Assembly (NCBI RefSeq): GCF_008831505.1
Contig: NZ_CP044507.1
Location: forward strand, 2,542,001-2,606,000
Direction: 5' to 3'
DNA: 64,000 nt
Source of the DNA: Chryseobacterium sp.
Lineage (GTDB): Bacteria; Bacteroidota; Bacteroidia; Flavobacteriales; Weeksellaceae
Shown here: piece by piece, positions 2,578 through 11,097 of the stretch
Position numbering within the stretch: the stretch's first letter is position 1
How the letters are laid out: each line of letters begins with the position of its first letter
Position numbers and translations under genes: made by a program
The notes under the pieces: generated by a model
What the model was told of the DNA's origin: nothing
The model's input: only the letters and a program-made list of their open reading frames with translations
Databases searched by the model: none

Positions 2578-3786
2578 TTACTTACTGTTCAGATCCTGAG
2601 CAATCAACCAGGCCTCGCTCCAGCAAGCCTGGAAGTTAAATCCGCCCGTCACACCGTCAATATTCAGCACTTCACCGGCCAGATAAAAGTCGGGCAGAAT
2701 CCGGGAGGACATATTCTTGAAATTAATCTCTTTCAGTTCTATACCGCCGGCCGTTACGAATTCATCTTTATAGGTAGATTTGCCTGTGACCTGCATCCTG
2801 TTTACGCAAAGGTTTCCGGTTATGCTTTCCATGTCCTTGGTGCTAAGGTTAGAGATACTCTTATTCAGATCCACTTTCGAAAGCCACAGAATGCGGTGCC
2901 AGAAACGGGTGGTTACATCAAAGATCCTGGAAGCGCCCAGCGTTTTCTTCGGATTCTCCTTACGGTAGGTCTGAAGAATATTCGCAGCATCTTCGGTGTC
3001 CATACCCAGGAAATTCACTACGATTTCGGTTTTATAGCCACATTCCGCCAGCTCGCGGGCTTTCCAGGCAGAAATCTTAAGAACCGCCGGTCCGGAAAGT
3101 CCCCAGTGCGTTATGAGCAGCGGCCCGGATTCATCGGACTTAAGCGATGGGATTGTAATAATGGCATTGGGAAAGCTGGTACCCATCAGATCTTTCAGGA
3201 CTTCATTTTTTATGTTGAATGTAAAAAGCGAAGGCACAGCCGGAACCAGTTTGTGCCCCAACTGCTGAATCAGCTTCAGGGATTTCGGTGCACTGCCCGG
3301 CGCATATACGATATAGTCTGCAGAAAAACTTCCATTGGTAGTGGACACCTCATATCCATGCTCATTTTGCTGAATGCTCTGCACAACAGTTTTCGTTAGA
3401 ATCTCAAAACCTTTTTGGTTAACGGTCTGCAGAAGTGCATCTATGATGGACTGCGATGAATTACTTTCGGGAAATATGCGGTTGTCGGCTTCAACCTTCA
3501 AGGCAACGCCCCGCTGTTCAAACCAATCCATGGTATCACCGGGCTGGAATTTGTGAAAGACGCTGATAAGCTCTTTGTTCCCACGCGGATAAAAACCTAC
3601 AAGATCTTTTGGGTCGAAGCAAGCATGAGTCACATTGCAGCGGCCGCCACCGGAGATCTTAACCTTCTGCAGCACATCTGCATTCTGTTCAAGAATCTTT
3701 ACCTTAAACTTTGTTTCGTCCAGATTGGCGGCACAAAAAAAACCCGCAGCACCGCCTCCAATAATAATGACTGATTTCTTATCCAT
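2578..3786 (-). CDS. YhiN/HI0933-family NAD(P)/FAD-dependent oxidoreductase
   Basis: A flavoprotein of the HI0933/YhiN family (often labelled aminoacetone-oxidase family); its substrate is not known. A Rossmann FAD-binding motif, VIIIGGGAAGFFCA, is at the N terminus, followed by the family signature KISGGGRCNVT, and the C-terminal FAD segment is GGFNFQACWSEA. I start it at the ATG at 3786 (MDKKSVIIIGGG) rather than the in-frame TTG at 3798, because the Rossmann strand then begins at residue 5. It runs divergently from the thioesterase gene. TAATTTTG on the minus strand (3796-3803) may be its -7 element, which would give a very short leader. Confidence 0.9.
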   Translation of the reverse strand: MDKKSVIIIGGGAAGFFCAANLDETKFKVKILEQNADVLQKVKISGGGRCNVTHACFDPKDLVGFYPRGNKELISVFHKFQPGDTMDWFEQRGVALKVEADNRIFPESNSSQSIIDALLQTVNQKGFEILTKTVVQSIQQNEHGYEVSTTNGSFSADYIVYAPGSAPKSLKLIQQLGHKLVPAVPSLFTFNIKNEVLKDLMGTSFPNAIITIPSLKSDESGPLLITHWGLSGPAVLKISAWKARELAECGYKTEIVVNFLGMDTEDAANILQTYRKENPKKTLGASRIFDVTTRFWHRILWLSKVDLNKSISNLSTKDMESITGNLCVNRMQVTGKSTYKDEFVTAGGIELKEINFKNMSSRILPDFYLAGEVLNIDGVTGGFNFQACWSEAWLIAQDLNSK

Positions 3787-3861
3787 AAAGCACGGCAAAA
3801 TTACGATTTTTAGAACCCACCTTTTAATCGTAAATTTACGCCCCTAAATAAACATATAAAA

Positions 3862-4362
3862 ATGTCCGTATATCACCATAAATTTGAAGTGCGCTGGAGC
3901 GATATTGATGCCAACCGTCACCTTGCAAATTCTACTTACGTAGAGTATTGCGCCCAAACCAGAATGTCCTTTATGTCTAAAAACAAAATGGGCCTGAAGG
4001 AGCTGAACCGCTGGGGAATCGGTCCCGTAATCCTGCATGAGAGATATTCCTTCTTCCGGGAAATCCTGATGGACCAGGAGGTTTATGTAACCCTGGAAAT
4101 CGACGGTTTTTCTGAAGATGGAGCCATCTATCAGTTCCTGCATAAATTCTATCTGCCGGACGGCACCCATTGCGCTACCTCGGAAGCTTTTGGTGTATGG
4201 ATTGACATGATGCTGAGAAAATCCACCACGCCGCCGGATGATATCCTGGAGGTACTGACCAAGTATAAATCCGACAATCATAAAATATTCACGCGCGAGG
4301 ACATTAAAGCACTGCCTTTCCGTGCGGAAAACATTGATCCTGCGCTCTTAAATTCCATCTGA
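3862..4362 (+). CDS. Acyl-CoA thioesterase, hotdog fold (YbgC/FadM type)
   Basis: Predicted to hydrolyse acyl-CoA thioesters in the cytoplasm. The N terminus shows the 4-hydroxybenzoyl-CoA-thioesterase pattern VRWSDIDANRHLANSTYVEY, in which the Asp after W-S is the usual catalytic acid and the N-x-H-x-x-N-x-x-Y segment lines the site. It has 166 aa, slightly longer than single-hotdog YbgC proteins. thiL follows after 31 bp on the same strand, so the two may be co-transcribed. The physiological acyl-CoA cannot be told from sequence. Confidence 0.88.
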   Translation: MSVYHHKFEVRWSDIDANRHLANSTYVEYCAQTRMSFMSKNKMGLKELNRWGIGPVILHERYSFFREILMDQEVYVTLEIDGFSEDGAIYQFLHKFYLPDGTHCATSEAFGVWIDMMLRKSTTPPDDILEVLTKYKSDNHKIFTREDIKALPFRAENIDPALLNSI

Positions 4363-4393: not shown

Positions 4394-5446
4394 ATGCTAG
4401 AAGATAAAAACCCACAGTTAACGCCTATTTCGCAGTATGGGGAATTCGGCCTGATAAAGCATCTGACCGAAAACTTTAGTTTCAAAAACGAATCTACGGA
4501 GATTTCCATTGGTGATGATGCTGCGGTGATCAATCCTCAGGGGCAGAAAGTTGTTGTCACCACCGATGTGCTGGCAGAAGGAGTACATTTCAATCTGGGA
4601 TACGTCCCTCTGAAGCATTTGGGCTATAAAGCGGTGGTAGTAAACATCAGCGACCTGGCTGCCATGAATGCCACGCCTACACAGATACTGGTTTCACTGG
4701 CCGTATCCAACCGTTTTCCGGTAGAGGCGCTGGAAGAGATTTATGAAGGAATCGCGCTGGCTTGTGAACGGTATAAGGTAGATCTGGTGGGCGGCGATAC
4801 TACAAGTTCCACATCTGGTCTGGTAATGAGCATTACCGCGATAGGTCTGGAGCATTCTGAAAACCTGGTAGGCCGTACGGGTGCCAAAGCCGGCGATTTA
4901 CTTGTCGTAACCGGTGATTTGGGCGGTGCCTATATGGGTTTACAGATATTGGAGCGCGAACATTCCGTATATCTGGCCAATCCCAATATGCAGCCTGAGA
5001 TGGAAGGCTACGATTATATCCTGCAAAGGCAGCTGAAGCCGGAAGCCCGCACGGACATTAAGAATACCCTTAAGGAACTGGGCGTAGAGCCAACTTCCAT
5101 GATTGATGTTTCGGACGGACTTTCGTCTGAAATCCTGCATCTTTCTGATCAAAGCAAGGTAGGTTTCAGGCTTTATGAGTCCAAAATACCGATGGATCCT
5201 CTGACAATGACCACGGCAGATGAACTCAACCTTAATCCGGTGATGTGCGCGCTGAACGGAGGTGAGGATTTTGAGCTGCTGTTTACAATTCCGGCCGCTG
5301 ATTATGACAAAATTAAAAATCACCCCGACTTTACCATCATTGGCCACGTAACGACTTTGGAAGAAGGCAATTACCTCGTTGCAGCGGGAAGCAATGAACT
5401 GATCGCACTGAATGCACAGGGCTGGGATGCATTTCTAAACAGATAA
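4394..5446 (+). CDS. thiL: Thiamine-monophosphate kinase
   Basis: Phosphorylates thiamine monophosphate to thiamine diphosphate with ATP, the last step of cofactor synthesis. The AIR-synthase-like fold is visible: Mg/ATP-binding SIGDDAAVI near residue 38, VTTDVLAEGVHF, a central VGGDTTSS and, later, MIDVSDGLSSEI and ALNGGEDFELLF. The length of 350 aa is normal. The last eight codons and stop (5420-5446) recur at 6899-6925 with only synonymous differences, so this gene end marks one border of an accessory block. Confidence 0.96.
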   Translation: MLEDKNPQLTPISQYGEFGLIKHLTENFSFKNESTEISIGDDAAVINPQGQKVVVTTDVLAEGVHFNLGYVPLKHLGYKAVVVNISDLAAMNATPTQILVSLAVSNRFPVEALEEIYEGIALACERYKVDLVGGDTTSSTSGLVMSITAIGLEHSENLVGRTGAKAGDLLVVTGDLGGAYMGLQILEREHSVYLANPNMQPEMEGYDYILQRQLKPEARTDIKNTLKELGVEPTSMIDVSDGLSSEILHLSDQSKVGFRLYESKIPMDPLTMTTADELNLNPVMCALNGGEDFELLFTIPAADYDKIKNHPDFTIIGHVTTLEEGNYLVAAGSNELIALNAQGWDAFLNR

Positions 5447-5448
5447 TT
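5420..5448 (+). repeat. Direct repeat, copy 1: 3' end of thiL
   Basis: This 29-bp stretch encodes the last eight ThiL residues (GWDAFLNR) plus stop. It matches 6899-6927 at 27 of 29 positions. The two differences (CTA/CTG Leu, AGA/AGG Arg) are both silent. Confidence 0.85.
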
Positions 5449-5485
5449 ATTTAAGGTTTTTGACCTTAGCATGGATTATAAATTG

Positions 5486-5527
5486 CCGCTAATACATGCT
5501 GAAAGTCAGGAGGGTTTTCGCAGCGGG
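5486..5527. repeat. Short degenerate relative of the terminal-inverted-repeat element
   Basis: GTCAGGAGGGTTTTCGCAGC (5505-5524) resembles the right end of the 226-bp element (GTCAGGAGACTTTGCGCAGC), and CCGCT at 5486 mirrors AGCGG at 5522. It looks like a remnant of about 42 bp with the interior lost. Confidence 0.55.
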
Positions 5528-5580
5528 GATTGGTGCAGTTGCTTATTATTTGGTATAAACTGATATACCTTTAACTAAAT

Positions 5581-5766
5581 TTAATATTTAATAAAAATTC
5601 CAACAATAATGCCTAGCGGAACCAAAAAAAGACCAGCATAGCTGTTCTTGGCATCTTCCACTTGTGGATTAGTATTATAGGCTTCTCCTATTTTTTTTGA
5701 GTTAAGATTATAAATAAAAATCCATCTTATAAATGCGCCAAATGCGCCAAAAACAAATTCCACCAT
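5581..5766 (-). CDS. Small hypothetical membrane protein (61 aa)
   Basis: Unrecognised. Starting at the ATG at 5766 it begins MVEFVFGAFGAFIRWIFIY, a membrane segment; a polar middle and a second segment (AGLFLVPLGIIVGIFIKY) follow. The frame continues upstream to a TTG at 5808, but those codons lie in the left end of the inverted-repeat element, so the ATG is preferred. It sits on the minus strand 30 bp below element copy A. Composition is AT-richer than the neighbouring thiL. Confidence 0.5.
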   Translation of the reverse strand: MVEFVFGAFGAFIRWIFIYNLNSKKIGEAYNTNPQVEDAKNSYAGLFLVPLGIIVGIFIKY

Positions 5767-5796
5767 ATCATTCGTTTTGATCCTAATTGATTTATC

Positions 5797-6022
5797 CCCG
5801 CTGCGCAAAGTCTCCTGACGTTGAGCCGTTCCAAATATCTTCTTGCTCGATAGAACATGAATGATTTAATCCTTTTAATAAAAAATTAAAAAATTGCTCT
5901 GTATTTAAGGGAACCAACTATTTCAAACAGGTTTTGTAAGAGCCGGCTTTGATCAAAGATAATGATTTATGGAATGTTAAGAAATGAAATTTGCTCAAAG
6001 TCAGGAGACTTTGCGCAGCGGG
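5797..6022. repeat. Terminal-inverted-repeat element, copy A (226 bp, MITE-like)
   Basis: Bounded by perfect 23-bp inverted repeats: the left begins CCCGCTGCGCAAAGTC (5797-5819) and the right ends GACTTTGCGCAGCGGG (6000-6022). Each end can also fold on itself (CAAAGTC/GACTTTG around a TCCT or AGGA loop). The interior has no convincing gene. Copy B at 6655-6882 is nearly identical throughout. No transposase lies in the window, so movement in trans is assumed. Confidence 0.85.
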
Positions 6023-6080
6023 TGTTTTCATAATTATTTTTGTTTGTTAATAAGATTACCCAAGGCCCACAGATGATTTT

Positions 6081-6539
6081 CTACAAGCTTACAGGTACGA
6101 TTTTCAGACTGTCTCTGATATTAGTTGTTGTTTGTTGTATTTCATGGAATAAGCCTTTCAGCTTGGGCGGAATATCTTTGACAGTACCCGTATAGCCTAT
6201 TCTTTTTGTATATCCGTTATTGAAAACAAACTCTATATCCAACAGCCGATCCTTTACAATTAAATTTTTATCGACTGATTCAAATTCAGCTTCATCTTCA
6301 AGGTTATCCAATCTTTCTCGGTTATAAATATTTTTAATATTTTCTACATTCTTATTTGGTATAATAAATTTAAATTTCTCTTTAACAGGCGCATCTTTTA
6401 TTTGTCTATAATATTCTCCTGTTCCATCAGTCAAATTATAACTAATTGCAGATGCCTTTACAGTAATTTTTTCGACTTTATGCTGTTTACAAGACATTAA
6501 TACCATTGTAATCAGCAAAGAAAAATGTATTGTTTTCAT
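6081..6539 (-). CDS. Hypothetical lipoprotein (152 aa)
   Basis: No family recognised. It begins MKTIHFSLLITMVLMSCKQH: a short basic start, a hydrophobic core and a lipobox-like L-M-S-C, so it should be lipidated at Cys17 and anchored in the envelope. The remaining ~135 residues are soluble and rich in Lys, Asn and Ile, with no repeats or catalytic motif I can name. The gene is strikingly AT-rich compared with thiL or the dcw genes. It lies between the two inverted-repeat elements, which suggests acquired cargo. Confidence 0.7.
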   Translation of the reverse strand: MKTIHFSLLITMVLMSCKQHKVEKITVKASAISYNLTDGTGEYYRQIKDAPVKEKFKFIIPNKNVENIKNIYNRERLDNLEDEAEFESVDKNLIVKDRLLDIEFVFNNGYTKRIGYTGTVKDIPPKLKGLFHEIQQTTTNIRDSLKIVPVSL

Positions 6540-6654
6540 CTTTTTAATCCCATATTAACAAATGATCGTAAATGGTACCAGTAATATTCATAACTGTCCT
6601 TGATACCTTAATTGATTATATTGCATCCTATAATAGCTAGCACAATTGTAGTCG

Positions 6655-6882
6655 CCCGCTGCGCAAGTCTCCTGACTTTGCGCCGTTCCAAATATCTTCT
6701 GGCTCGAAAGAACATGAATGATTTAATCCTTTTAATAGAAAATTAAAAAATTGCTCTGTATTTAAGGGAACCACCAACTATTTCAAACAGGTTTTGTAAG
6801 AGCCGGCTTTGATCAAAGATAATGATTTATGGAATGTTAAGAAATGAAATTTGCTCAAAGTCAGGAGACTTTGCGCAGCGGG
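6655..6882. repeat. Terminal-inverted-repeat element, copy B (228 bp)
   Basis: Same orientation and near-identical interior as copy A (5797-6022), with a few substitutions and small indels (for example an added CCA near 6774). The left repeat lacks one A (CGCAAGTC); the right is intact (6860-6882). It is followed at once by a second, partial right end, GAGACTTTGAGCAGCGGGG (6882-6900), as if a further unit had been lost. Confidence 0.85.
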
Positions 6883-6898
6883 AGACTTTGAGCAGCGG

Positions 6899-6927
6899 GG
6901 CTGGGATGCATTTCTGAACAGGTAATT
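6899..6927 (+). repeat. Direct repeat, copy 2: duplicated thiL 3' end
   Basis: Reads as eight codons for GWDAFLNR plus stop, in the same orientation as thiL, directly fused to the right end of the repeat array. No further thiL sequence precedes it. Differences from copy 1 are synonymous, so this is a piece of a real, diverged thiL end. Confidence 0.85.
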
Positions 6928-7013
6928 TAGATCGGCTTTCAGCCTGCGGATGATCTATGACCGATTCCTTTCTCTTCAAAATGGTCTGTTTGTCCGCTTA
7001 AAATCAATTTAAT

Positions 7014-7057
7014 TGCCTACCTTTGAATTACGCAGCACGGTAACTCAAAGAGAGGCA
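7014..7057. repeat. Imperfect inverted repeat, 18-bp arms
   Basis: Arms TGCCTACCTTTGAATTAC (7014-7031) and GTAACTCAAAGAGAGGCA (7040-7057) pair at 15 of 18 positions around an 8-nt loop. No T-run follows immediately on either side, so it is not a standard terminator. It may be the end of another element or a structured RNA tail beyond the SGNH hydrolase gene. Confidence 0.6.
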
Positions 7058-7081
7058 AAAAATTATTTTGATCGCTCCCAC

Positions 7082-7100
7082 AGTCTCAGGAAATGAGACT
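7082..7100. repeat. Short hairpin resembling the element ends
   Basis: AGTCTCA (7082-7088) and TGAGACT (7094-7100) form a perfect 7-bp stem and are followed by TTGCAG, echoing the AGTCTCC/GACTTTGCGCAG ends of the nearby elements. It lies 23 bp beyond the hydrolase stop codon. Confidence 0.4.
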
Positions 7101-7123
7101 TTGCAGAACCACGATTTATGATT

Positions 7124-8380
7124 TTATTTTTTCTGAATTTTTTCTGAATATTGCTTAGCACCGTCAGTGAATTTCAGGAAATACAAACCTTTGGTTAATC
7201 TTTGCATATCGATAGCGTAGGTAGGATACTGCTCTTCAATTGAAGTCTCGATTCTTCTGCCACTGGCATCAAAAAGTTGAAAAGAGGATAATCTGTTTCT
7301 GGATTGTATTTTCAAGAATTTTTCTACAGGATTTGGATACAGCAAAAACGGTTTTGCTGAGGATTCTTCTACACCCAATGCAAGAATCTCAATATTCTTT
7401 GTTGCAGTCGTATTTCTCCCACATGCATTTGTAGTAAAGGAGACGGTATAGTTTCCTGTGGCCGCGTAGGAGTGCTGGGGATTTTCCAATGTAGAGGTGG
7501 TTCCGTCACCGAAATCCCAAAAATAGGTTGTAGCAGAAGGTGAAGATTCATTTTGAAACTGGACCGTTTGCGAATTTACCATACTTGTGGAAAATCTTGA
7601 ATTAACATCATGTGATAAAATATAGTACGTATTCATATTGTTAAAAACAACATTATGAACTGCCGTTCTTACGATTTGCGCTTCTGCCGCACTTATATTT
7701 CCGTTATAAGTCGCCAGCAAAGGATCTTTCTTGAAAATAGTGGTGTAGAAAGTATATGCGGCAACCATAGAACCTATTTCGCTGGGATGCGACTCATCAG
7801 TTTCATACAATTCCATATTTGGATAATTGGTGCGAAGCCATCTCCAAACCTTTCCTACGGGGGAAACCAAGGCTTCATTTTCTAATGCCATATGCATATA
7901 CCTTTCACTGATTTTATCATCCATGCCGGTATAGGTACACATATAGGAGCCTGGTGAACAGTTGGACGCATCGCCATTTTTTCTTCCCCATGTCATATAA
8001 AATATAGCATTGCCACAAGGATTGCTGTTTCTAATACGGGTGACTAACTGTGCGCCATAGGGAAAAAGTTCTGCCTGCACATAAGGTAATGGAAATGCCG
8101 GTATCTGGCTTTGTTCCTGCAGTACTACATAGTCCCATGTTCCCAAATCAATTGTTGAAGTGACAGCAGGATTGGTGGCATGTTGCTTTAAAGTGTTTCC
8201 TCCAGGCGTATAAGCCTCATATACAAGGTTATCACCCGTACTTACTGCAATGTTCTGTACCAACTGCGGCAAATTGTTGAAGGCTGTATAGCTGTTTCCA
8301 ACAAAAAAGACTTTTTTTACAGATTGAGCCAGTGAGAATGCAGAGAAAAAGCTAATAATAAAAAGTAGTTTTATTTTCAT
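7124..8380 (-). CDS. Secreted SGNH-type hydrolase with PKD domain and type IX sorting tail
   Basis: Start chosen at ATG 8380 because it opens a signal peptide (MKIKLLFIISFFSAFSLAQS); the longer frame to 8476 has no such sense. Mature order: an SGNH-like domain with VFFVGNSYTAFNNLP (the G-N-S block), a WDYVVLQEQSQIP block and DESHPSEIGS (Asp/His block) near residue 200; a PKD domain (FWDFGDGTTSTLENPQHSY) near residues 285-330; then a Por/type IX C-terminal domain (LYPNPVEKFLKI to LTKGLYFLKF). It should be secreted by the T9SS and kept at the cell surface or released. The ester substrate is unknown. It stands alone in the accessory block. Confidence 0.85.
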   Translation of the reverse strand: MKIKLLFIISFFSAFSLAQSVKKVFFVGNSYTAFNNLPQLVQNIAVSTGDNLVYEAYTPGGNTLKQHATNPAVTSTIDLGTWDYVVLQEQSQIPAFPLPYVQAELFPYGAQLVTRIRNSNPCGNAIFYMTWGRKNGDASNCSPGSYMCTYTGMDDKISERYMHMALENEALVSPVGKVWRWLRTNYPNMELYETDESHPSEIGSMVAAYTFYTTIFKKDPLLATYNGNISAAEAQIVRTAVHNVVFNNMNTYYILSHDVNSRFSTSMVNSQTVQFQNESSPSATTYFWDFGDGTTSTLENPQHSYAATGNYTVSFTTNACGRNTTATKNIEILALGVEESSAKPFLLYPNPVEKFLKIQSRNRLSSFQLFDASGRRIETSIEEQYPTYAIDMQRLTKGLYFLKFTDGAKQYSEKIQKK

Positions 8381-8493
8381 ATAGATTTTTTTGCTAATAT
8401 ACCAAAATCCGGCACCACTAAAAAGACTACCACTACCCGCAAAGCAACGTCTGCCGATTTTGAGATGTAACCACATCGTTCATTATTATACTT

Positions 8494-8501
8494 CAAAGTT
8501 A
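8494..8501 (-). promoter_or_regulatory. Possible -7 element for the SGNH hydrolase gene
   Basis: TAACTTTG on the minus strand is a full match to TAnnTTTG. No clear TTG sits at the usual distance upstream, so support is partial. Confidence 0.35.
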
Positions 8502-8612
8502 TCAACCTGTATTTAGCGCAGTTGTTAAATCTCCCAACTCCCCGCTGCCCAAAACACACTAATCTTATCTGCTTTTTCAATACGGGGTACAACTATTTAT
8601 CTGTAGGAGATA

Positions 8613-8644
8613 ATAAAAAACCCGAAGCGGCAATGCTCCGGGTT
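8613..8644 (-). terminator. Intrinsic terminator at the end of the dcw/yqeY transcript
   Basis: A 10-bp stem (8619-8628 with 8635-8644, 6-nt loop) has one G-U wobble in the minus-strand RNA and is followed on that strand by TTTTTTATTA. It lies about 90 bp beyond the yqeY-type stop. Confidence 0.8.
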
Positions 8645-8735
8645 CAAATCAAATCGATATGCAAAGGTTGGATATCCTTAATAGTGCGGATGACAAAGTG
8701 CTGATCAGCTAAATCGCATCCGGGTCTTATGCAGG

Positions 8736-9182
8736 TTAAGAAAGCAGTTTCTTCACCATTTCTGAAATACTCTTACCGTCAGATTTGCCGGCAAGGGATT
8801 TAGAGGCCATTCCCATCACTTTTCCCAAATCCTTCATGGATTCAGCACCGGTTTCGGCAATGATACTGCGGATCTCCGTCTCCAGTTCTTCAGCAGTAAG
8901 CTGTTTTGGCAAAAATTTCTCAATGACTGCTGTCTGCGCGGTTTCAACGTCAGCAAGGTCCGTACGGCCCTGCGCCGAAAACTGTTCGAAAGAGTCTTTC
9001 CGCTGCTTAATCATACGCTGGAGGATAGCAATTTCCTGCTCCTCTGAAACCTCGGCACCTTTTGCCTCCGTTTTCACGAGTAAGATCTGTGCTTTCACCG
9101 CACGAAGTGCATCCAGGGCTGTTTTGTCCTTTTCGCGCATGGCGGTCTTTATGGCTTCTGTAATGTTGTGTTCTAAACTCAT
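8736..9182 (-). CDS. GatB/YqeY domain-containing protein
   Basis: A 148-aa helical protein of the YqeY family, related to the C-terminal tRNA-binding tail of the amidotransferase subunit GatB; its own function is unsettled. Typical features are AIKTAMREKDKTALDALRAVKA at the N terminus and GMASKSLAGKSDGKSISEMVKKLL at the C terminus. It follows ftsZ by 31 bp and is the last gene before the operon terminator. Confidence 0.93.
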   Translation of the reverse strand: MSLEHNITEAIKTAMREKDKTALDALRAVKAQILLVKTEAKGAEVSEEQEIAILQRMIKQRKDSFEQFSAQGRTDLADVETAQTAVIEKFLPKQLTAEELETEIRSIIAETGAESMKDLGKVMGMASKSLAGKSDGKSISEMVKKLLS

Positions 9183-9213: not shown

Positions 9214-11097
9214 TTAATCTACGTCCTTGTTCAGGAACCTGTTCTCGCGAACCTGCATCTGCCCGCTGCTGTTTTCAGAAAGATAGGTATTGATCCGTTG
9301 TTGTGAAGCATCTGAAGTTTCAATCGAGATATTCTTTCTTTTGAAGGCAGGAACAGTTTCGAAATCATTTTCACTTTCGGAAACCTGATAACGGGAATTA
9401 AATTCCTTCAGTTTATTCCTTCTCTCGAAAACCTTTTCCTGATTAACGGTCTTGTTAATGAAAGTAAACTCTTCCTGCACCTCAACCGTTTTGGTTTCCG
9501 GTGTTTTAGCGGCTGGAACTTCCGCTTTCTCTTCTATCTTAATTTCTTCCTTCTGCTGAACCGGTTCCGGCTTAACTTCTTCCTTAGGCGTGCTGAAATC
9601 GGCTAAGGTTTCATTAATCGGTTCGTTTACGAAAAAACTGAACTCCATTGGCTTCTCCTCACTGAACGATTTGATCTCCGGAGTTTCCTGCGCAGAGGCT
9701 GAATTATCAGCCGGGTTCGGTCTGTCTTCTGTTTCAAACCTGAAAGACTGTGCCTGAAGGTCCGCCTGATCGGCAGCATCCTCATCAATAGTAAAAAGGT
9801 CATAATCTTCCTTACTCTCAGCTTCCGAACGGTAATCTTTTGCAGGAAGTTCGTCCTTTTCAATAATTCTGAATTCGTTACGCGGCGTTGGTAAAGTTTG
9901 AGATGCCGCCTGCATATTTATGCCGGAATTTTGGTCTTCATCTTCCTGATCCAGGCGGAAGAAGCCCTGTGAAGCCAAAGCTGCCGGTGCCTCGCTGTCC
10001 TGTCTTTCATTTTTCAAACGGAATGGAGACTGCTTTGGAACCGAAACTTCGCTTACATCTTCCAGCTTGATGCTGATTTTCTCGGCAGGGCCGGTGTTTT
10101 TCTTATTGTCATTGGCAAAACCGGTGGCGATTACAAGTACTTTGATTGCTGCACCCAGTTCCTCGTCTGTACCTACACCGAAGATGATGTTGGCGGTGTT
10201 GCCGGCTTCGCTCTGGATATAATCGTTAATAAGGCCTATTTCGTCCATTGTAGCCTCATTAGCCTCTTCCACACCACTTTGGATTAACAGCAGAACATCT
10301 TTCGCACCTGTAATTTTATTGTCATTCAGCAATGGAGAGTCCAGTGCTTTACGTACAGCTTCATCAGCGCGTTTTTCGCCGGTGGCGATGCCTGTGGACA
10401 TCAGTGCAGTTCCGGAGTTCTGCAGTACAGATTTGGCATCACGGAAGTCAATATTAATGGTGAATGGTGCGGTAATAACCTCAGCCATACCTTTGGCAGC
10501 GTTGGTAAGCACCTCATCCGCTTTGGAGAAGCCCTGCTTGAAGCCCAGGTTGCCAAACTGCTGTCTCAGTTTATCGTTGTTGATTACAATAAGTGAATCT
10601 ACGTTGTTTCTAAGTTTTTCCAGACCCAGATCTGCCTGATCCAGACGGCGGCGGCCTTCAAAACTGAAAGGTACAGTAACGATACCTACGGTTAGGATGC
10701 CCATTTCCTTGGCAATCTTGGCGATTACCGGCGCCGCACCGGTTCCGGTACCACCACCCATACCTGCAGTGATGAAAACCATCTTGGTATTCTGTCCCAA
10801 AGCAGCTTTAATATCGTCAATGCTTTCTATAGCGGCCTTCTCACCTACGTCAGGGTCGGCTCCTGCACCCAGGCCTTCCGTAATGGTAACCCCTAACTGA
10901 ACTTTATTGGAAACGGGATTATTATCCAGAGTCTGTGCATCGGTGTTGCAGATGATGAAATCTACACCGTGAATCCCTTTCTCGTACATGTGCATCAAAG
11001 CATTGTTACCGCCGCCACCTACACCGATTACTTTTATTATGGAGGAATTCCCTTTCGGCAAATCAAATGAAAACCCCTCAGTGCTATAATTTTCCAT
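9214..11097 (-). CDS. ftsZ: Cell division protein FtsZ
   Basis: Tubulin-like GTPase that polymerises into the Z ring at mid-cell. The GTPase core fills about the first 325 residues: [17 protein letters not shown] at the N terminus, the tubulin signature [10 protein letters not shown] near residue 110, and the synergy-loop segment [12 protein letters not shown] roughly 270-residue charged tail rich in Glu, Lys and Ser follows, ending in a short conserved-looking peptide ([11 protein letters not shown]) that probably binds FtsA and other partners. At 627 aa it is much longer than the 383-aa E. coli protein. It lies 45 bp after ftsA. Confidence 0.98.

Follow-up and report, generated by a model that had tools for sequence, protein, structure and literature searches.

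The subject of this analysis is a 64,000-nucleotide stretch of DNA from Chryseobacterium sp. (the window; its genome is referred to as G000) and, within it, the interval between thiL, which encodes thiamine-monophosphate kinase, and yqeY, where the last eight codons and the stop codon of thiL are present twice on the same strand. The reading that we favor, with about even confidence, is that the block behind thiL is acquired accessory DNA, made of single small genes between REPINs (pairs of inverted repetitive extragenic palindromes, or REPs), and that it entered through a homology-anchored insertion of REP-ended DNA akin to homology-facilitated illegitimate recombination (HFIR). Three direct observations carry this account: the anatomy of the interval, the low divergence of the block with its left edge at the thiL terminus, and a twin case beside a TauE-family permease gene. 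Since the layout occurs at two loci of G000, genes seem to be added in this way repeatedly, and a classical integrase does not look responsible.

A first-pass annotation of this DNA had reported that the thiL 3' end recurs some 1.48 kb downstream with two synonymous differences, and this is borne out in full. Between 5419-5448 and 6898-6927 (the 27-mer extended by one base to the left and two to the right), 28 of 30 bases agree, the two differing codons being CTA/CTG and AGA/AGG; with up to three mismatches allowed, the 27-mer is found in the window at these two places only, where 100 shuffles lead one to expect 0.00. When the same 27-base pattern was sought at three mismatches in 59 genomes, G000 gave two copies, its sister species G001 one, and the other 57 none. 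None of 80 named relatives carries a second copy of its own thiL end (four mismatches, both strands), the search covering the whole fetched locus of up to 17 kb per relative, several being shorter. The second copy directly abuts the outer end of a truncated REP, and three bases (GGG), read from the sequence, are common to the REP end and the thiL tail at this joint. A simple tandem duplication of the whole block was considered and rejected, as the sequences following the two copies differ.

Inside the block, a 226-base unit made of two REP palindromes in inverted orientation occurs twice as a direct repeat. Those of REPIN 1 (5797-5826 and 5993-6022) are 97% complementary, and the element folds as a single strand with a z-score of -7.06 relative to shuffles. 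A REP profile built from 21 sequences, all outside the window, scores 54.5 bits at 6853 and at 5993, 49.3 at 5797, 34.8 at 5498 and 20.3 at 8436; strong REPs are confined within the window to the thiL-yqeY interval (see the table for controls). Because REPs reach 8465, the accessory stretch runs from thiL to about that position with the second thiL end inside it, such that the earlier description of a block bracketed by two thiL ends is correct as to the repeat and incomplete as to the DNA, which continues well beyond. The REP has an outer GCAGCGGG end. A GTAG foot is absent from 20 of the 21 training 30-mers, these being all that was scanned for it, and appears in one as a variant of GCAG. 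No REP is seen at the thiL locus of the 80 named relatives (four mismatches), and nothing between 5300 and 8700 matches Rfam at the gathering score.

Features of the thiL-yqeY interval in window coordinates (a dot denotes no strand; ORF, open reading frame)
Feature	Position	Strand	Remarks
thiL (thiamine-monophosphate kinase), intact	4394..5446	+	350-aa ORF with AIRS N-terminal domain; 98% identity to G001
Copy 1 of duplicated thiL end	5420-5446	+	inside intact thiL
Left part of insert	5447..6022	.	common to G001 at 2.4% substitution plus 21 gap columns
Degenerate REP near left edge	5498..5527	+	34.8 bits (REP profile from sequences outside the window); reversed window as control reaches at most 3.1
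Cassette A, small membrane protein	5581..5808	-	75-aa ORF; probable start 5766 (61 aa)
REPIN 1	5797..6022	.	two inverted 30-base REPs, 166 bases between
Cassette B, 152-aa putative lipoprotein	6081..6539	-	signal peptide with Cys read by eye; sub-threshold DUF6438 match
REPIN 2	6655..6882	.	96% identical to REPIN 1
Truncated REP fused to REPIN 2	6881..6898	+	outer end joins thiL copy 2; read from sequence
Copy 2 of thiL 3' end	6899..6925	+	relic, no gene in front
Cassette C, DUF4886/PKD protein with type IX secretion system (T9SS) sorting tail	7124..8380	-	listed ORF to 8476; signal-peptide start at 8380
Degenerate REP, right edge of accessory DNA	8436..8465	-	20.3 bits; best place outside the interval 3.2
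yqeY, right-hand core neighbor	8736..9182	-	PF09424

Comparison with the sister species locates the left edge of the insert. In G001, which has a single thiL end, the order is thiL, cassette A, a REPIN, a CPBP-type protease-like gene, one REP and yqeY. Between the two genomes thiL differs at 101 of 1053 bases (9.6%), 85 of the 351 third positions among them, and the yqeY side at 61 of 674, while the left part of the insert shows only 14 substitutions in 576 bases (2.4%) plus its gap columns (Fisher p = 1.2e-8 versus thiL). This fall from 9.6% to 2.4% at the thiL terminus places the edge, the last difference in thiL lying at 5437 and the next at 5491, and recombination would have made it. The low divergence is best explained by horizontal transfer between lineages of DNA whose left edge falls at the end of thiL; the alternative would be that the block is under strong constraint. 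A+T-rich (33.5% GC versus 44.4% for the window), far less diverged than its neighbor gene and with its left edge at the thiL terminus, the block is most probably acquired DNA; as to a plasmid or phage origin, it has no match in either sequence collection at the distant setting. In two further genomes, G002 and G003, the order is thiL, a convergent metallophosphoesterase gene and yqeY. Only 23% paralogues of this gene, located elsewhere, are present in G000 and G001, and a remnant of it in the interval was rejected (best tblastn E in the window 1.0; inside thiL 3.6).

The twin case came from a self-comparison of 20 REP loci. At 1.729 Mb of contig C1 of G000 (locus L185), the end of a TauE-family permease gene (PF01925) is followed by a 242-aa accessory gene, a REPIN and a relic of the gene end. 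The duplicated end occupies 6231-6365 and 7477-7608 of the locus, with 77.8% identity over 135 columns, and in the multiple alignment the relic starts right at the REP end. Here, G001 offers an empty site (L273), where one TauE gene end runs directly into the sequence found after the relic in G000, and the next gene is the same in both genomes; the DNA on the right of the relic is thus resident. Because no such empty site was found for thiL, the residence of the DNA after the second thiL end is taken from the TauE locus; the approximately 200 bases in question match nothing in the 59 genomes apart from one stretch of 30 bases, among the best six candidates per genome. The earlier proposal that a gene end had been stranded by an insertion therefore gains support from the TauE locus and its empty site, and its identification of that gene end as an att-like integrase site does not.

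On the favored HFIR-like account, one side of the incoming DNA would have recombined within the very end of thiL, and the other side, a REP end, would have become joined to resident DNA; thiL would have stayed whole, with a second thiL tail left stranded beyond the REP. The assignment of one copy of each gene tail as resident is an inference. The joint might have been made by HFIR proper, in which one end pairs by homology and the other is joined illegitimately, or a circular molecule might have entered by a single crossover; the free end might have been made by the REP hairpin or by the nuclease of its REP-associated tyrosine transposase (RAYT). Natural competence has been reported in Riemerella, which we take to be a member of the same family as this bacterium. 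The common factor at the thiL and TauE loci is a REP end on the right and a gene end on the left. The HFIR-like mechanism does not explain why the joint falls at a REP end. By analogy, TnpAREP could supply joinable ends at the REP, as passages of one study describe it cutting and joining single strands at C|T beside REPs (PMC8266576).

The closest precedent is the HFIR proposed for orphan immunity arrays behind type VI secretion system effectors in Vibrio cholerae (PMC5361080). There, too, as described in passages of that paper, acquired small genes stack behind a gene; homology anchors one side, the other side is joined illegitimately, and a displaced 3' end is left as a relic. In contrast, the Vibrio effectors change, whereas the anchors here are housekeeping-type genes that stay intact, and only here does the non-homologous joint coincide with a REP end (passages of PMC5361080). 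To judge from titles and abstracts in a limited search of the open-access literature, REP-bounded inserts with duplicated core-gene ends have no description.

Several observations weigh against insertion of REP-ended DNA. G001 carries the same left block and yet has one thiL end. No empty site for the thiL copy itself was found in the 59 genomes. Plain homologous recombination would put the left edge exactly at the thiL terminus only by coincidence. The position of a REP behind thiL means little by itself, since in two species, according to passages of PMC3733652, it is common for REPs to be no more than 20 bases from the 3' end of a gene. A tree cannot be built from the 27 bases at thiL. For the TauE locus, where no outgroup is available, a loss in G001 is a possible if less simple explanation; the second copy is not significantly closer to G001 than the first (16 versus 11 private sites, p = 0.44); and in the last third of the duplication the two G000 copies group together, a likeness that counts against a wholly foreign first copy.

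The best-surviving rival is a local duplication, in which the thiL tail was copied beside the REP by template switching or a staggered break, no foreign gene end being involved, and the copies, identical to begin with, later took one mutation each. At position 5437 the first copy has A (the CTA codon), while the second copy, G001, G003 and G002 have G; at 5444 the second copy has G (the AGG codon), while the first copy, G001 and G003 have A. Each copy thus has one private change by comparison with G001 and G003, and since one mutation per copy explains the differences, a foreign allele is not required at thiL. The first-pass annotation had derived the second copy from a diverged thiL allele on the strength of these same differences, an argument that must now be considered weak. 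The polarity of the changes is itself weakened, as both codons vary freely among the named relatives in the wider family. The three bases common at the joint also suit a local event, as do the agreement of the TauE copies in their last third and the want of a significant affinity between the second TauE copy and G001. Against it stands the acquired look of the block itself, together with the private sites of the TauE duplication (16 in the first copy, 11 in the second and 6 in G001): the excess in the first copy over G001 (two-sided p = 0.05) is more than a copy made after the species split should have, and is not expected had that copy been G000's own gene duplicated. Local duplication is a possible but rather unlikely account of the repeat.

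A more active role for the palindromes would be movement driven by a RAYT, in which a cut at the REP end and at a chance site in a donor gene end yields a circle of gene tail, cassette and REPIN, whose single crossover in the tail leaves two hybrid copies. An intact 201-aa protein of G002 with a Y1 transposase domain (PF01797, E 3.2e-7) is flanked by the palindromes seen at thiL, and a RAYT gene flanked by two inverted REPs is the defining arrangement according to passages of PMC2817692. The palindromes also accompany a G003 gene of 71% identity to it, as well as fragments in G001 and G002. All four RAYT genes or fragments of at least 70% identity (L242, L243, L254 and L263, the G002 query included) have a REP beside them; among the 18 other loci of the RAYT search only L259 has one, and L259 is a remnant next to the G003 gene L243. 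These counts cover the loci of the RAYT search, as distinct from the flanks of further Y1 loci. By eye, the motifs of the G002 protein are NHIH, WQ and YIHLNP, so that two fit the consensus quoted for Bacteroidetes subclass 2.6 (NH[LIV]H, WQ, YIH[QN]NP) and the third is one residue off; passages of PMC6006769 ascribe to this subclass atypical flanking structures with copies elsewhere in the genome. The elements of the interval resemble REPINs or BIMEs (bacterial interspersed mosaic elements) with their RAYTs in being dispersed pairs of inverted palindromes whose like occur beside a RAYT gene (passages of PMC2817692 and PMC6006769). They differ in their few copies (nine pattern matches in G000) and in bounding accessory genes, and the passages on REPINs and BIMEs in those two papers do not describe duplicated gene ends at REP ends.

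The patterns of agreement within the two duplications also bear on RAYT-driven movement. At thiL, the second copy matches G001 at the left difference and the first copy at the right, a pattern that may equally reflect two hybrid copies made by one crossover between both positions, and two sites cannot decide. At TauE, the pattern flips once near position 12, close to the REP, from 6:0 to 5:16 (permutation 0.0065), as for two hybrid copies; this can serve only as a lead, for all six left-hand sites fall in a span of 10 bases next to the REP. The joining activity of TnpAREP cited above would fit as well. However, G000 lacks an intact cognate RAYT and has only a split 45% relative without REPs, and, according to passages of PMC6006769, transposition of REPtrons as a unit does not seem to occur. 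Taken together, RAYT-driven movement seems to us doubtful.

Some integrative elements use gene 3' ends as att sites, leaving the gene whole and its end repeated beyond the insert. The first-pass annotation had read the thiL tails in this way, as att-like sites, and an integrase acting in trans that inserted DNA site-specifically at the thiL 3' end, with the tails as attL and attR, would account for a left edge at the gene terminus, a 27-base near-identical bracket, an insert between and a second end beyond. This reading fares worst and we consider it improbable, on several grounds that also set the interval apart from known integrative elements. No integrase is found among the interval ORFs scanned, as had been noted earlier, and the nearest of eight PF00589 matches in the genome lies about 49 kb away (serine recombinases were not searched genome-wide). 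The duplications differ in length, 27 versus about 135 bases, and share no constant core, having at most 4-6 bases in common where the shuffled mean is 5.8. The right edge is a REP at both the thiL and the TauE loci, and at thiL the accessory DNA continues past the second copy. Attachment of the tRNA type is dismissed, as there is no tRNA in the window.

If insertion of REP-ended DNA is right, it suggests a route for adding genes behind core genes that needs no integrase and does not break the core gene, and it links REP elements to the edges of acquired genes. Such a mechanism is testable, because one genome offers two loci and a sister species provides the empty site for one of them. A bolder extension, which we think rather unlikely, is a REP-based traffic in cassettes, in which REP ends cut and joined by RAYT enzymes would move accessory genes one at a time from species to species and into the 3' ends of core genes, with a replacement tail arriving each time. 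With similarly low confidence, one might then expect genes for small secreted or membrane proteins to build up behind core genes that remain intact.

The start of cassette A is probably at 5766, because the 75-aa ORF begins with codons that lie in a REP. Its relatives at E <= 0.001 among the 59 genomes are confined to G001, in the same slot, and G003, in a different REP-bounded slot, and the family thus occurs in 3 of the 59 genomes including G000, beside REPs in each. The G003 slot also holds two weak matches to the protein of the TauE slot (24-30% identity, pairwise E about 0.001). Cassette B has a relative in G003 (contig C13; 32% identity) with a degenerate REP about 150 bases off, and the best match of cassette C, among the best six candidates per genome of the 59, is 66% over 354 bases in G013. 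An identity as known immunity or defense proteins was rejected: cassettes A and B match nothing in NCBIfam (E up to 0.05) or PADLOC (E up to 0.01), and the same holds, at the same thresholds, for four further accessory proteins (L185:6401-7129, L176:4410-4832, L045:2850-3179 and L045:3872-4300). The protease-like protein of G001 and the G003 relatives have only sub-threshold NCBIfam matches.

The 20 REP loci contain 45 duplications outside REPs, of which 3 directly adjoin the outer end of a REP (thiL, L178 and L188), a count that leaves out the TauE case, for which the BLAST match starts 15 bases beyond the REP, and from which duplications overlapping a REP by more than 8 bases were also dropped; the loci are related and the number is small. 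With shifted REP positions the mean was 0.27, three abutting duplications being reached in 18 of 2000 shifts and three loci in 2 of 2000. The repeated stretch at L178 is not clearly a gene end, and that at L188 lies inside an Rhs-like gene. Empty sites for L176, L177 and L186, at places guessed by synteny, were not found in the fetched pieces.

Rhs orphan tips, which are displaced 3' regions, offer a further likeness, in that REPs of G002, G013 and G001 lie, by eye, near Rhs-like and immunity-like genes. Matches to the Pfam RHS models fall below the curated cut-offs for the G002 and G013 proteins, with none for the G001 protein. Unlike such tips, the thiL and TauE-family genes show no Rhs core. 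At L178 (contig C4 of G002, 6685-9051), near a RAYT gene and REPs, two ORFs share an Rhs-like leader (a 101-base repeat, 95%), and each precedes a possible immunity gene; at 9406-9501 of the same locus lies a tandem array of half-REPs with a 22-base period.

Gene names in two other REP-rich slots are given by eye. At L265 (contig C20 of G003, 5383-7103), a REP-bounded slot extends from a signaling-type gene to an RNA-methyltransferase-like gene and holds relatives of cassettes from two different G000 slots, one of them weak. At L045 (1800-4620, corresponding to G000:C1:1416800-1419620), an aminotransferase-like gene and a pyrophosphatase/OmpA-like gene enclose three REPIN-like elements that alternate with single small genes; the left flank of this array at 1417 kb is not the left neighbor in G001. 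The ORF at 3581-3865 looks like an orphan toxin tip, a lipoprotein-like gene comes after it, and at about 2430-2455 and 4580-4604 some REPs bear an extra hairpin-loop insertion that is itself repeated in the array.

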